Source: an uncultured Clostridia bacterium
Lineage (GTDB): Bacteria; Bacillota; Clostridia; Oscillospirales; UBA644
Direction: 5' to 3'
Length of the DNA: 33,021 bases
Assembly (NCBI GenBank): GCA_944386305.1
Contig: CALXAN010000074.1
Location: forward strand, 1 to 33,021
How positions within the stretch are numbered: position 1 is the first letter of the stretch; every line of letters begins with the position of its first letter. A program made the translations under genes and the position numbers. The notes under the pieces are model-generated. The model saw nothing but the letters and a program-made list of their open reading frames with translations, was not told the DNA's origin and searched no databases. Shown here piece by piece: positions 8,776 to 18,434 of the stretch.

Positions 8776-10793
8776 TTGATGTATACAGCGAATGCCGCCG
8801 CTGCACAGCCTGATGCGGTAATTAATGAAATCCAAAGCATTGCGTTATCGTCGGTCTGCGGGCTGTCGTTGTCATTCTGCCCGCCGGGTTTGTAATCCGG
8901 GTCGGAAGCGCCGCAGACCGTGCATGTTCCGTCTTTGTAGCTGTGCGCAAGCTTCGCAACGGTCTGTCCTTTTTGAAGAACCTCGCCGCAGTCCCTGCAG
9001 ACCCTGTCCCCGGTATAGCCCTCGGCGGTACATGTGGCTTCTTTTTCATTTTTCAGTTCTGTTTCCCCATGCCCCTTGGCTTCTATGACCGTCGCTTCCT
9101 CTGTGATTTGCTGTGTCAGCGCCTCATCGCTGAAATACCGGCCGCAGGTCTCGCAGCGCCAGTATTCGATGTTTCCGTCCCCGGTGCATGTGGCGTCTTT
9201 GGCCTCGATTTTTACCGCTTTATGCTTCAAAATCGTACCGGCTTTTTCCCGGGTATCGGCGGCGCCGCAGCGGTCGCATTTTGCCGTTTCTGTCCCGTCT
9301 GCAGTGCATGTGGCGTCGTTGTTGTACTTATAGTTTGTAAAGCTGTGGTTGTCAGGGTCGACGTCGCCGTACGGCCTCCCGCAGTCTTCGCATACTGCTT
9401 CGGCAGTACAGGTGGCGGTTCCGCCCGCATGGACGTGCTCCCCGATATGGACGTATTTGCAAGAGCTGAGGGCGGCCATCGCGTCGGCATCGAAATCCGC
9501 TGCTGCGCTGTAAGGGGACTGGCCGAAATGCACGGCGGCATACCCGTCATGATTCGCGGCATCCGTCTTCAGCTCCGCCAGCGTGCCTGCGGCGGGCGTA
9601 ATACGGAAGGAAGCGTTGTCTCTGCTGAGGGTGTAGTAATCGGAAATATCTATTCCGCCGTATGCGGTTATTTCGGACGCGGTGACTTCAAGCATCCCCG
9701 TAACAATCGCCCAAATATAGCTGCCGCCCGGCGAGCAGGATGCGGTAAGCTTGGAATTGTTCACCTTTAAGCCCTTTATGGCCACCATGCCTTCATTCTT
9801 TGTGCCGGAAGCCGTAACGGTGCTGTCGTTTATCGTCATATTCCCGTCTGTAAAAATGCCTCTCATTCCTTTGCTTTCCGCCGTAACGGTGCTGCTGTTT
9901 TCTACCGTTATATCTCCGTAAGCATAAATGGCAGGGTAGGCATACGTAGAGGTATCATATGCTTTTACTGTGGAATTATTGACGACAATGTCCCCGTCGC
10001 AGTAAATCGTGTTGCTCGATCCTCCCGTCGCCGTCACATCGCTTCCGCCGGTGATCTCGACAGTATCAGCCGCCCATACAGCAGGGCTGGCCGATGATTC
10101 GGCATATGCCTCGACTGTAGAATTGTTAATCTTGATGCTGCCTTCCCATGCGTACAGGGCATGGTGTGACTCAGCCTTCGTGCGAGCTGTTACGGTACTG
10201 CCGTCTATCGATATTTCCCTGGCGGAGATCGGTGCGTATTGGTCGGAGATGAGATCGAGTACGGCGCCGTTTATAACAGTGACGGTCTCGTCTCCGTCTT
10301 CCACGGCCACGCCGTAATTCGCCTCTGAGTAAATGCAGTCTGCGCCGGAATGTATGGTTAAGCCAACGCCGTCTATCGTTATTTTCTTTGCCCAAATTCC
10401 CTGCTGCAGCAGGTTCCCTGCCTGGATAATGTTCAGCTTTCCGCCGCCCTGCAGATAAAGCGCATTCGCTCCCAGGGAGATTCCGTAGGTGCTGGTTATG
10501 TTGATAGTATTTTCGCCTATGATATTTACCGTCAGGTCGTCGCCTTCTTTGATAAAGCTTCTGTAAATGCCGCTGTTTAGTACCGCGTTATTGAGCGTCA
10601 GGGCCTTTGTATCCGGGTTATAGGATACTTTCCCGTCGCCTAAAATATCGTCCGCATTCGCGCTTGTCACATTTACCCCGGCTACTACTAAATTATATTC
10701 CCCGCCCGCCGCCAAGGCGGCTGCCGGCAATAACGTCAGCATCATGCAAAGGCTTAGTATCGCCGCAAGTCGTTTTTTCCCTCTCTTTTTCAT
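8760..10793 (-). CDS. Surface protein: beta-helix repeats, Cys-pair repeats, SPQTDD anchor
   Basis: This 677-residue protein has a signal peptide (about 1-28, MKKRGKKR then a hydrophobic core ending in AALAA). Short beta-strand repeats follow (about 40-400; 'ITVENSSTVTA', 'VVNNSTVKA'), predicting a right-handed beta-helix. Next come five or so Cys-pair repeats of the form TCTADG...CDRCG (about 455-635), as seen in many Bacillota surface proteins. The C-terminus has SPQTDD at 644-649, a hydrophobic segment and KRKSC. This resembles a sortase signal, but the Gly of xPxTG is replaced by Asp. The start codon overlaps the stop of the upstream surface gene by 4 bases (ATGA), so translation is coupled. 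It is probably an adhesin or glycan-binding protein; the ligand is unknown. Confidence 0.85.
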   Translation of the reverse strand: MKKRGKKRLAAILSLCMMLTLLPAAALAAGGEYNLVVAGVNVTSANADDILGDGKVSYNPDTKALTLNNAVLNSGIYRSFIKEGDDLTVNIIGENTINITSTYGISLGANALYLQGGGKLNIIQAGNLLQQGIWAKKITIDGVGLTIHSGADCIYSEANYGVAVEDGDETVTVINGAVLDLISDQYAPISAREISIDGSTVTARTKAESHHALYAWEGSIKINNSTVEAYAESSASPAVWAADTVEITGGSDVTATGGSSNTIYCDGDIVVNNSTVKAYDTSTYAYPAIYAYGDITVENSSTVTAESKGMRGIFTDGNMTINDSTVTASGTKNEGMVAIKGLKVNNSKLTASCSPGGSYIWAIVTGMLEVTASEITAYGGIDISDYYTLSRDNASFRITPAAGTLAELKTDAANHDGYAAVHFGQSPYSAAADFDADAMAALSSCKYVHIGEHVHAGGTATCTAEAVCEDCGRPYGDVDPDNHSFTNYKYNNDATCTADGTETAKCDRCGAADTREKAGTILKHKAVKIEAKDATCTGDGNIEYWRCETCGRYFSDEALTQQITEEATVIEAKGHGETELKNEKEATCTAEGYTGDRVCRDCGEVLQKGQTVAKLAHSYKDGTCTVCGASDPDYKPGGQNDNDSPQTDDNAMLWISLITASGCAAAAFAVYIKRKSC

Positions 10794-13273
10794 TGCGCTC
10801 TTTTCCTCCTTTGCATATGCGCGAAAGCGGCGGCCGTTCCCGATACGAGCAGCAGCGGCAGGATCAGACCGCCGTCATATGTCTGCGGGCTGTCGTCCTT
10901 ATCCGCGTCGCCGTCTTGTTCGTCTGAGTCCGACGGGTCGGTCGGGTCATTCGGGTCGTCGGTATTGCCCGGATCGTCGGGGTTGTTCGGGTCGTCGGGG
11001 TTACTCGGATCATCGGGATTGTCCGGATCTGTCGGGTCGTCTTCGGCTGCAGCTGCGCCGAAATACAGCTTGCCCTCGGTCAGCGCCCTTGCTATGACCG
11101 TCTCTTCCGTAAACGGCGAGCCCTCGAGCTCGGCCGCGTCCGCGGCCATCTTGTCCCAGTCCATATCCCATGTGTCCTCATTGACCGTCCAGTCGTCCAG
11201 GGCACTTACGGTGATTTGGCCGTTTCCGGGGCGGACGATAAGCTCTGCTTCGTAGTAGAGGCTGTCCGTATATCCCGTTGCGGCTATGGTTCCGCCCGAG
11301 ATGATGATGTTTCCGCCTGTGCCGTCGTCAATGTCCTTCAGCGCGCTGAGTCCGTTGCCGAGCCCCTCATAGATATACGCGCCGTACGCGCCGTCGGCGC
11401 GGACAGATCCGCCTTTGATGACGATGTCTCCGGCTTTGGCCGCGATGGCGCTTATGCCGTCTCTGGCGCATCCGCCGCTGGCGTTTACTACAGTATCCTT
11501 GCCTGTAATCGTGACGTCTCCGCTTTCGCTGAAGATGCCGCCGCTGTACTGCGGCTCAACGCCGTCAACGGGGTATGAAGCGCCTGTGGCGGTTACGCTG
11601 CCGCCGTTTATATTTATGTCTCCGAGGGCGTAGACGCCGTCCGCTGAGCCGTGCTCGGTCAGCCCTACCGCCGCGATGACCTCGCCGCCGTTTACGGTCA
11701 CGCTGCCGTAGGCTCTTATGCCCGAGCTCGTCGCCGCGTCAGGGTCTGTATGATTTACGGCCCTTCCTCCCCGAGTCTGTACGCTGCCGCTCTCAATGGT
11801 TATATCGCCGTCTATGAATATGCCGGCGCTGTAATTTGCTTCATCTCCGCCGGCGAATACCGCCGCGTTTTTGATTATAACGTCGCTGTAGGCCTCGATG
11901 CCGTAGCTGTGGGAGTCATAACCCTCGCCTTCGTACATGGCCAGCGTCCCCGTAGCTTTTACCGTGCCGCCGCTGATAGTAACGCCGTCGGAATATATGC
12001 CGCAGCTGTAGACGTATTCTTCCTCGTCCGTAGAAGTGGCCCAGCCGCCCGAGGCCGTGACTTGGCCTCCGCTTACGGTGGTAATGTCATAAGAGTCGAT
12101 GCCGAAGCTTTCCGCAACAGCGCCCGTGGCCTGACCGCCCGCCGCTTTTACCGTGCCGCCGCTTACGGATGCTTCCCGTTCGGCTTCAATGCCGCAGCTG
12201 TAGGCCTTTGCGTTCTCGCCCGTGACCGTCCCGCCTGTGGCTTCCACCTCGCCTGAGGTAACGGTGACGCTGCCGTAGGAGGACTGGATTCCTCCGCTGT
12301 AAAGAAATGTTAAATCACTCCCGTCCGCGGCGGAGACATTCCCGCCCTCGGCCGTGACCGTGCCGCCGTTTATATTGATGCCGCCGGGTTCGCCGTAGGA
12401 ATAAATGCCGTAGCTTTCGGCGTATCTGCCCGTGGCTTGGCCGCCGGTGGCCGTAGTTATGCCGTTTGAAATGTTGATTTGGCCGTCGTAGGAATAGATG
12501 CCGTAGCTTTTGGCGCTGTCGTTCGAGCTGCCCGCGGCCTTTCCTCCCGTAGCCGTTACTTCGCCGCCGTTTACGGTGATGTCGCCGTCAGCTTCGATCC
12601 CGTAGCTGACCGCCGATAGAGCCGTGGCCTGGCCGCCCGTGGCCGTGACTGTGCCGCCGCTGACGGTAATGTCGCCGTCGGTGGACTCAAGACCATTGCT
12701 CCAGGCGTGAGACTCGTCGCTCACGGCAGTTCCGCCTGAGGCGGTTACGGTACCGCCGCGGATATTGATGCTGCCTGCAGCTGAGATTCCGCAGCTGCTG
12801 ACATAATAGGATCTGCTCATGACTGTGCCGCCGGCAGCGTTCAGAGAGCCGCTGCCGCCGACGGTGAGATCGCCGCCGGTATAGATACCGTAGCTGTAGT
12901 CGGCTTCGGTTTCATAGTCGTCTTCCGGACCTTTGACAGTGTTTTCGCCGACCAGTTCGATTTTAAAACCGGTTTCGCAGTAGACGGCGGCGTCGCCGTG
13001 AACAGACTCATGCGCGCCCTGCGTGATCGTCGCGTCGTCGAGCGTCAGGGTTTGGCCGTCCCACTTGATGCTGTAGTTTTCCGCGTCGGCGCCCTCGGCC
13101 GTCACCGCGCCGTCCTCGGCGGTCAAGGCGTAGGCGGGGGCGTCCGCGCTGCCCGTCAGCTCCGTGCCGCCGACATATATCGTCTCTTCCGTATCCGCTG
13201 CGGCCGCCGCTGTGGGCAAAAGCGCCAGCGCCGCGCACAGGCTCAGCAGTGCGACGGTAAATCGTTTTTTCAT
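10790..13273 (-). CDS. Large beta-helix surface protein (adhesin-like), SPQTYD anchor
   Basis: This 827-residue protein has a signal peptide (1-26), an N-terminal domain with 'YSIKWDGQTLTLDDATI', then about 14 repeats of roughly 35-40 residues built on 'GDITVNGGTVTATGGQA' and 'SYGIYS', predicting a long right-handed beta-helix. A wall-spanning Pro/Asp/Asn linker (about 745-790, DPxNPDDP repeats) precedes SPQTYD (795-800), a hydrophobic segment and a basic tail (QRRKRAQ). The sorting-like signal again lacks the Gly after Thr. AAGGAGG at 13284-13290 supports the start. It is the first gene of a two-gene operon, with a dual-HTH regulator just upstream on the same strand. Host-glycan or cell-cell adhesion is likely but unproven. 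Confidence 0.85.
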   Translation of the reverse strand: MKKRFTVALLSLCAALALLPTAAAAADTEETIYVGGTELTGSADAPAYALTAEDGAVTAEGADAENYSIKWDGQTLTLDDATITQGAHESVHGDAAVYCETGFKIELVGENTVKGPEDDYETEADYSYGIYTGGDLTVGGSGSLNAAGGTVMSRSYYVSSCGISAAGSINIRGGTVTASGGTAVSDESHAWSNGLESTDGDITVSGGTVTATGGQATALSAVSYGIEADGDITVNGGEVTATGGKAAGSSNDSAKSYGIYSYDGQINISNGITTATGGQATGRYAESYGIYSYGEPGGININGGTVTAEGGNVSAADGSDLTFLYSGGIQSSYGSVTVTSGEVEATGGTVTGENAKAYSCGIEAEREASVSGGTVKAAGGQATGAVAESFGIDSYDITTVSGGQVTASGGWATSTDEEEYVYSCGIYSDGVTISGGTVKATGTLAMYEGEGYDSHSYGIEAYSDVIIKNAAVFAGGDEANYSAGIFIDGDITIESGSVQTRGGRAVNHTDPDAATSSGIRAYGSVTVNGGEVIAAVGLTEHGSADGVYALGDININGGSVTATGASYPVDGVEPQYSGGIFSESGDVTITGKDTVVNASGGCARDGISAIAAKAGDIVIKGGSVRADGAYGAYIYEGLGNGLSALKDIDDGTGGNIIISGGTIAATGYTDSLYYEAELIVRPGNGQITVSALDDWTVNEDTWDMDWDKMAADAAELEGSPFTEETVIARALTEGKLYFGAAAAEDDPTDPDNPDDPSNPDDPNNPDDPGNTDDPNDPTDPSDSDEQDGDADKDDSPQTYDGGLILPLLLVSGTAAAFAHMQRRKRAQ

Positions 13274-14874: not shown

Positions 14875-15301
14875 CATAAGAAAACTCTGCGCAGATTCTG
14901 TGCTGTATTTTTGTAAGAAAAATAATCAGCGCAAGGCGACATGAAACAAGGTAATAATAAAAACTCTGTGCGGACCGGGTGAATGGGCTGCGGCCTGCGG
15001 ATACGGAATCTGCGGGGTAATAAAAGCCCTGCAAGAAATGGGTTCGTCATAAATTGCTGACGGATGCGGAACTTACAATGTAACAGAACTTCATGCGGGC
15101 GCAGGGGCGGATTTGCCGCAGATTGATGCGGCTGACGGATACGGAGCTTATAGGCAATAAAAGCTCTATGCAGACAGAGTTACCGCGGAGCGGCTGACGA
15201 ATGCGGAACTTACAATGTAACAGAACCCCATGCGGGCGCAGGGGCGGATTTGCCGCAGATTGATGCGGCTGACGGATGCGGAATTTATAAAGCAATAAAA
15301 A
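14875..15301. repeat. Degenerate tandem array C (~70-bp unit, 137-bp dimer)
   Basis: A unit of about 63-78 bp, holding AATAAAAACTCTGTGCGGAC-like and GCTGACGGATGCGGAACTTA segments, recurs about seven times (first segment near 14881, 14959, 15022, 15085, 15158, 15222 and 15297). Two 90-bp blocks, 15056-15145 and 15193-15282, differ at only four positions with an offset of 137 bp. The first segment of the unit is the left arm plus A-tract of the terminator at 15302-15332, so the terminator looks like the gene-proximal member of the array. Confidence 0.85.
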
Positions 15302-16762: not shown

Positions 16763-18367
16763 TTACAGCCGCGATATTATCCGCACGGCTTCGGTCTTAA
16801 ACTGCGGCGTGTCGTCGTTTAGCAGCGCCAGGTCGGTGTGAGATATGAAGTAATCGAGCGGCTTCTGAGCGTCTATCCTTTCTTTGGCCTGTTCCCGCGT
16901 CAGTCCGTCCCTGTTCATTATCCGCCGCAAACGCACTTCATATTCACTGTATACGGTAAGCGTAAGGTCGCATGCCGCCGACAGGCCCGACTCGACAAGA
17001 GCTATCGCCTCTATGACCGCGCGCTCCGTACCCTCGTCCTGCAGCCGGCTCAGCCGTTCCTTAACTGCCTGCGCGACGGCGGGGTGGGTTATTTGGCACA
17101 GACGGGCCGTGGCCTCGGGGCAGGAGAACGCTTTTTTGGCCAATGCGCGGCGGCATATCGCGCCGTTTCGGTCCAGTATGTCGGAGCCGAATTCCGCGGC
17201 TATATCGTCGGTCAGCTCGGGCAGAAGGTAGGCGTAAACCTCGTCCGCGCTTATCGTCGCGCAGCCGTTCTCGGCGGCGAGCTGCAGCAGCATGGATTTG
17301 CCCGAGCCCGTAGGCCCGGTAACTCCCAGCACCTTTGTCATATGCTGCTTTTGGGCGTCTATTACGTTAAAGCCGCAGGCTCTCAGCAGCCTGTTGTATA
17401 CCGCCAGCCCGACGCCGCCGTCGTATGCCTTTGCGCGTACAAACAGTCGGTCGGCCCCGTGCGCGTCCGCAGTGCGCAGGGCTGTAAAAAGTCCTCGGGC
17501 CTGTGCGGCCGGGTCGTCCGCTCCGCCGTAGGTTATCACCGTGAGGCCGGGGTACATATCCTTTTCTTCGTCAAAGCATATCACGCAGATATCCCTATAC
17601 CCGTACGCGCTGCGGTTTATGCAGCGGGCGGCGTGCTCGGCGGGCCCTGTCACGCAGGTGGTGTACGCCGCGGGCGCGTAGTGCTTGTGCTTCAGTCCGG
17701 GAGACAGGGCCTTTTCGCCGTCGGGCAGCTGTTGGACGACCGCCTGGGCTATATGCAGCCGGGGCAGGTATTCTCTGAGCTGCTCGGGGGTTATGTATCC
17801 GGGCCTGAGCAGCGTCGGCGGGTCGGAGACCAGCGACACTACCGTGCTCTCCACGCCGCGCTCGCATGGGCCCCCGTCCACTACGCCGTCTATGCGGTCG
17901 GCAAAGTCGTGTATCACATGCTTTGCCGCAGTCGGACTGGGGCTTCCCGATATGTTCGCGCTCGGCGCCGCTATGGGTACGCCCGCGAGCCTGATTATGC
18001 GCCGGGCCGTAGGGTCGGAGGGGCAGCGTATGGCCACCGTGTCCAGTCCTGCGCTGACAATGTCGGGTATAACGTCCCTTTTCTTGAGTATCATGGTCAG
18101 CGGCCCGGGCCAAAACGCCTCTGCGAGCCTGTAGGCCTCGGGCGTGGCCACGGCGTATTTGTCCAAATCCTCCGCGTCGGCTATGTGCACTATCAGGGGG
18201 TTGTCCGCGGGCCGTCCCTTGGCTCTGAATATCCCCGCCACGGCCTGCGCGTCCAATGCGTCGGCGCCCAGTCCGTATACCGTCTCCGTGGGTATGGCTA
18301 CGATCCCGCCGTGCGCGAGTATGTCGGCGGCGGCCGCAATATCCTTTTCACTGGTAGAAAATATCAT
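16763..18367 (-). CDS. Fusion: TsaC/Sua5 threonylcarbamoyl-AMP synthase + CoaE dephospho-CoA kinase
   Basis: This 534-residue fusion has a Sua5-type N-terminal part (about 1-330): YrdC fold with 'IPTETVYGLGADA', 'KGRPADNPLIVHI', 'SANISGSPSPTAAKHV', and a Sua5 C-terminal domain after 'SPGLKHKHYAP'. It makes threonylcarbamoyl-AMP for t6A tRNA modification. From M343 the chain becomes a CoaE-like kinase: P-loop GPTGSGKS (351-358), 'ISADEVYAYLLP', 'ITHPAVAQAVKERL', 'RDGLTREQAKERIDAQKPL'. CoaE phosphorylates dephospho-CoA in the last step of CoA synthesis. The ATG at 18367 is preferred to a GTG at 18376 because GGGAGG is 8 bases upstream of it. No ribosome binding site precedes M343, so a true fusion is likely. 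An operon with YjbR (upstream) and M18 (downstream) is likely. Confidence 0.9.
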   Translation of the reverse strand: MIFSTSEKDIAAAADILAHGGIVAIPTETVYGLGADALDAQAVAGIFRAKGRPADNPLIVHIADAEDLDKYAVATPEAYRLAEAFWPGPLTMILKKRDVIPDIVSAGLDTVAIRCPSDPTARRIIRLAGVPIAAPSANISGSPSPTAAKHVIHDFADRIDGVVDGGPCERGVESTVVSLVSDPPTLLRPGYITPEQLREYLPRLHIAQAVVQQLPDGEKALSPGLKHKHYAPAAYTTCVTGPAEHAARCINRSAYGYRDICVICFDEEKDMYPGLTVITYGGADDPAAQARGLFTALRTADAHGADRLFVRAKAYDGGVGLAVYNRLLRACGFNVIDAQKQHMTKVLGVTGPTGSGKSMLLQLAAENGCATISADEVYAYLLPELTDDIAAEFGSDILDRNGAICRRALAKKAFSCPEATARLCQITHPAVAQAVKERLSRLQDEGTERAVIEAIALVESGLSAACDLTLTVYSEYEVRLRRIMNRDGLTREQAKERIDAQKPLDYFISHTDLALLNDDTPQFKTEAVRIISRL

Positions 18368-18434
18368 AATACGCACCTCCCTTTATTTGAACAGCGCGGT
18401 TATTATTCATTGAAAAAAACGTTCGGCGCGAGCC

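Follow-up and report, generated by a model that had tools for sequence, protein, structure and literature searches.

Sua5 proteins of known structure combine a TsaC-like domain with a SUA5 domain, as in P. abyssi (6F87, 6F8Y), S. tokodaii (2EQA) and TsaC2 of Thermotoga (9D3H). The protein described here has the same two domains, shares with these structures KxR/SxN, the signature named for the TsaC/Sua5 family (PMC10321239), and matches them at 37-44% identity in fold alignments; whereas they stop after SUA5, it continues directly into a dephospho-CoA kinase (CoaE). The fold, the P-loop and the Asp and Arg residues of this second half are those of the CoaE proteins of A. aeolicus (2IF2) and E. 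coli (1VHL), which stand alone, while here the kinase is C-terminal to Sua5. Longer chains containing either domain are known. CoaE is found within one in the mammalian bifunctional CoA synthase (2F6R) and in the 415-aa mycobacterial CoaE (6N39); in CoA synthase CoaE is joined to the enzyme that acts just before it in one and the same pathway, whereas Sua5 comes from an unrelated pathway. A TsaC/Sua5 domain is joined to another enzyme in HypF, TobZ and TsaN (8IDE), but the partner there is Kae1/TsaD-like, with related chemistry, and CoaE is apparently unrelated. CoaE is not mentioned in the TsaC/Sua5 family papers which discuss Kae1-like fusions (HypF, TobZ), and no paper describing a Sua5-CoaE fusion was found in the open-access literature, a scope which makes this weak evidence of novelty. 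Automatically annotated database entries may already hold such proteins.

The fused sua5-coaE gene occupies positions 16763 to 18367, on the minus strand, of a 33,021-nucleotide stretch of DNA, hereafter the window. It starts with an ATG at 18367, preceded at a distance of eight bases by a Shine-Dalgarno-like GGGAGG (18376-18381, minus strand), and ends with a stop codon at 16763-16765; the frame comprises 534 codons, corresponding to 534 aa, with zero internal stops. Three Pfam domains follow each other along the same strand, all of them scoring above the gathering cut-off: the TsaC-like catalytic domain of Sua5 (PF01300, Sua5_yciO_yrdC; aa 16-190, 17798-18322; 208.6 bits, 6.5e-62), the Sua5_C domain (PF03481; aa 192-332, 17372-17794; 86.9 bits, 2.4e-24) and the CoaE domain (PF01121; aa 346-519, 16811-17332; 110.2 against a cut-off of 27, 1.2e-31). 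The NCBIfam equivalog models agree, with 212.5 for Sua5 (TIGR00057, cut-off 123.2) and 97.0 for CoaE (TIGR00152, cut-off 65.55). The uninterrupted frame joining Sua5 and CoaE, which had been noticed in a previous sequence-only reading of this DNA, is thus borne out. Between the two halves lies a short junction (aa 333-345, 17333-17371, minus strand), containing an in-frame ATG at 17341.

Directly 3' of the fused gene, on the same strand, an M18 aminopeptidase is encoded (PF02127; 15385-16749). Between this gene and one for a LuxR-like regulator, at 15056-15289, there is a 97-nt direct repeat, whose two copies are 94% identical, with a spacing of 137. Further along, the minus strand encodes an 827-aa repetitive protein (10790-13273), probably located at the cell surface. 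It begins with what resembles a signal peptide, contains many SYGI...GGTVTA repeats and a region rich in Pro and Asp, and ends in a hydrophobic tail.

The residues expected of the two enzymes were located in the window protein. The Sua5 signature corresponds to KGR (aa 50-52) and SAN (aa 136-138), and K50, R52, S136 and N138 are invariant across 21 fused proteins. In the CoaE half the P-loop (GPTGSGKS), D375 and the LID arginines R482, R486 and R497 are all intact, as the previous reading of its kinase motifs had stated. D375 occupies the position which we take to be that of D33 in E. coli, the presumed catalytic Asp. P-loop, D375, R406, E459, R482, R486 and R497 are equally conserved in 55 fused and 90 split copies. 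An AlphaFold model, for which 21 fused homologues were aligned, has a mean pLDDT of 90.3 and matches, by Foldseek, both solved Sua5 and solved CoaE structures; its pTM of 0.69 is only moderate and sets no domain interface. The linker residues between Sua5 and CoaE are poorly conserved among the 21 fused proteins.

The genome from which the window derives, the only one of its genus in the sample, is a fragmented MAG, 85% complete, whose 129 contigs total 1.62 Mb. Within this incomplete assembly the single CoaE match and the single match to a Sua5/TsaC domain both fall on the fused gene, and neither a second coaE, for which the sequence-only reading had suggested a search, nor a second Sua5/TsaC was found; tsaE and coaD are present. 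The fused protein is therefore most simply this organism's sole Sua5 and likewise its sole CoaE, as far as an incomplete genome can tell. One position deviates: residue 373, which precedes the presumed catalytic Asp by two positions, is Ser in the window protein and Asp in nearly all relatives. This replacement, together with the roughly 15% of the genome that is missing, would suit a CoaE half which is degenerate or repurposed, the real CoaE being encoded elsewhere; the intact P-loop, D375 and LID arginines, a TIGR00152 score above the equivalog cut-off and the failure to find a second coaE in the available contigs all speak against it. The loss of key CoaE residues, envisaged earlier as a sign of such a state, is not seen, and a degenerate kinase, hardly credible for a sole copy with conserved residues, was rejected.

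The search for CoA synthesis genes also revealed that coaBC (PF04127) is matched in 0 of 20 genomes of the family, represented by the window genome and 19 relatives, ten of them more than 90% complete, while all of 14 control genomes give a match; coaD and coaE are present in the family lacking a coaBC match. A coaBC mutant of B. subtilis grows on pantethine via a CoaA-dependent route (PMC11487621). Judging from gene content, the family may salvage CoA from pantetheine-type precursors; if so, CoaE would still be essential, which fits an active CoaE domain.

In order to find relatives of the fused protein, genome contigs were searched; a single-protein search returned none, and relatives were found by an alignment-based search. 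With a profile of the fused protein, unbroken fusions were identified in 45 of 394 sampled genomes of the order Oscillospirales, a frequency which depends on the genomes sampled. They are distributed over 8 families, and a tally from the listed rows assigns 6 fused genomes to family f1, 1 to f10, 13 to f12, 7 to f13, 4 to f15, 1 to f16, 12 to f23 and 1 to f24. Scores of joined matches are well apart from those of split ones, so the joined list should be complete for the 394-genome sample. In 37 further cases among the same genomes both genes share one frame, with stop codons between them. A sample of 398 genomes from across the phylum yielded no fusion outside the order.

The domain pair, which the sequence-only reading had proposed to look for across genomes, thus occurs in the same fused architecture in 44 further genomes of this order; the Sua5-CoaE fusion is real and recurrent, not a one-off. 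This bears on a rival explanation, namely that an assembly or sequencing error in the MAG joined two overlapping genes. A one-nucleotide change at the junction could turn an overlapping pair into a joined frame, and the genus is represented by a single genome; the unbroken architecture, however, recurs in the 44 other genomes, including groups of related species, and the window junction lacks the Shine-Dalgarno sequence seen in many split relatives. Such an error is very improbable, and was rejected given the many independent genomes with the fusion; the 44 unbroken cases rule out the local frameshift or sequencing error at about 17341 which had been named beforehand as what could separate two genes.

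The genomic context is conserved as well. In the greater part of the order coaE lies next to sua5 and often overlaps it, and genomes of the window's family carry either the fusion or a sua5 with coaE immediately behind it, the two commonly overlapping. An M18 aminopeptidase gene lies 3' of coaE in most examined loci of the order. Among the members of the order that bear names in the public collection are Oscillospiraceae, Gemmiger, Flavonifractor, Butyricicoccus and Ruminococcus flavefaciens. In a few loci apparently belonging to the order the two genes are not adjacent; in L072, for instance, coaE is about 1 kb from sua5, and in L218, L219, L221 and L224 it is not next to it. Of the Sua5 loci in the other orders of the class, the 13 with the highest scores were inspected, and their 1.5-kb flanks contain no coaE (0 of 13). 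In one locus of the same family as the window (L007, genome G013) sua5 and coaE lie in one frame but are separated by three stop codons, which looks like an intermediate or a frame-disturbed state.

The history of the fusion was evaluated on trees of Sua5 sequences. A quick tree of 151 sequences requires 19 changes between the fused and split states, 8 of them forced by strongly supported branches, and a more careful tree of 70 sequences requires 13 (bootstrap range 12-14), at least 9 of them forced by well-supported branches, each count merging gains and losses of the fusion. A single ancestral fusion was rejected, since 0% of the bootstrap trees of the careful analysis are compatible with a single fused/split change. 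The outgroup is split, L094 is a fused locus inside a split clade and L207 a split one inside a fused clade; the tree patterns therefore point to gains in most cases and perhaps to some reversals as well. In the quick tree both states persist among close relatives.

The fate of the translation start of coaE was followed at the junctions. In the window, the in-frame ATG at 17341 (aa 343) immediately precedes the conserved start of CoaE, and no Shine-Dalgarno-like sequence is present 5' of it, which agrees with the earlier remark that no ribosome binding site precedes the CoaE part. Within the 16 codons before the P-loop, an ATG is found in 5 of 55 fused genes against 67 of 90 split ones (Fisher p=3e-15); any start codon with a Shine-Dalgarno match of at least 4 nt occurs in 5/55 against 58/90 (p=1e-11), and with a match of at least 5 nt in 0/55 against 26/90 (p=9e-7), all these p-values treating the rows as unrelated and ignoring their relatedness. 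Start signals being rarer in fused genes, the internal initiation site has, on the evidence of these junctions, largely decayed, as would be expected if the protein were made as one chain.

The same junctions were considered for the opposite case, in which a free CoaE is produced alongside the joined chain, or even as the main product, either from an internal start at 17341 or after the linker has been cleaved. The position of the window ATG would allow it, split relatives do start translation at the junction, and some ATG, GTG or TTG is kept nearby in 35 of the 55 fused genes. But the window ATG lacks a Shine-Dalgarno sequence, the ATG and the combined start signals are scarce in fused genes, as just reported, and in 19 of the 55 the 16-codon stretch ahead of the P-loop contains no start codon of any kind. 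Production of a separate CoaE is accordingly regarded as improbable.

The explanation which we consider very probable is that the gene encodes a bifunctional enzyme, arisen by repeated in-frame merging of coupled neighbours, whose halves work independently. The product would be cytosolic, its N-terminal Sua5 predicted to form threonylcarbamoyl-AMP for t6A in tRNA and, after a short linker, its C-terminal dephospho-CoA kinase to carry out the last step of CoA synthesis. In this order sua5 and coaE form a neighbouring and usually overlapping pair, and the overlap makes it probable that they are co-transcribed and translationally coupled; short overlaps couple the translation of neighbouring genes, and such pairs are enriched for subunits of complexes (PMC10666635). 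The fusion would have arisen from this arrangement, since an overlapping pair requires little to merge: short insertions or deletions, together with loss of the stop codon of sua5, would repeatedly have brought both genes into one frame, and the internal coaE start would have decayed after merging. The two activities would run independently, each on its own substrates, and the fusion would fix a 1:1 stoichiometry and co-expression.

A functional coupling which goes beyond stoichiometry, through contact, sharing of ATP or joint regulation of t6A and CoA synthesis, would find some basis in the recurrent fixation of the fusion, with its at least 9 forced changes, and in the order-wide linkage of the two genes. 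It is nevertheless unlikely: ATP is the sole shared intermediate, coupled neighbours offer many chances of neutral fusion, close relatives include both fused and split forms, and the linker residues are not conserved. In other orders of the class, moreover, Sua5 is fused to a low molecular weight (LMW) phosphatase (PF01451) in two loci (L235, 442-1977; L237, 298-1803), a partner apparently as unrelated as CoaE. The partner seems therefore to be set by the neighbourhood and not by a special link between t6A and CoA, which favours a bifunctional protein with independent halves.

The sequence-only reading had left the choice between co-regulation and a repurposed kinase domain. The former is the better supported, by a conserved and mostly overlapping gene pair across the order, while the latter is disfavoured by a kinase which is the only CoaE found, has catalytic residues as conserved as those of split copies and is accompanied by coaD. 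Neither channelling nor repurposing is indicated, and the fusion probably has its explanation in the order of the genes and in their shared expression, not in new chemistry. It is improbable that the fusion was selected because Sua5 and CoaE interact, physically or in regulation, in this order, linking the supply of CoA to a tRNA modification for translation fidelity.

For a single gene pair the order offers a natural series, which runs from genes lying apart, through neighbouring and overlapping genes and genes that share a frame but are interrupted by a stop, to fused ones, with many independent transitions; it is thus well suited to the question whether fusions of metabolically unrelated neighbours are a neutral by-product of coupling or are selected. 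Annotators are warned that one protein can carry both Sua5 and CoaE, and that a domain fusion alone, in the "Rosetta stone" sense, need not mean a common pathway.
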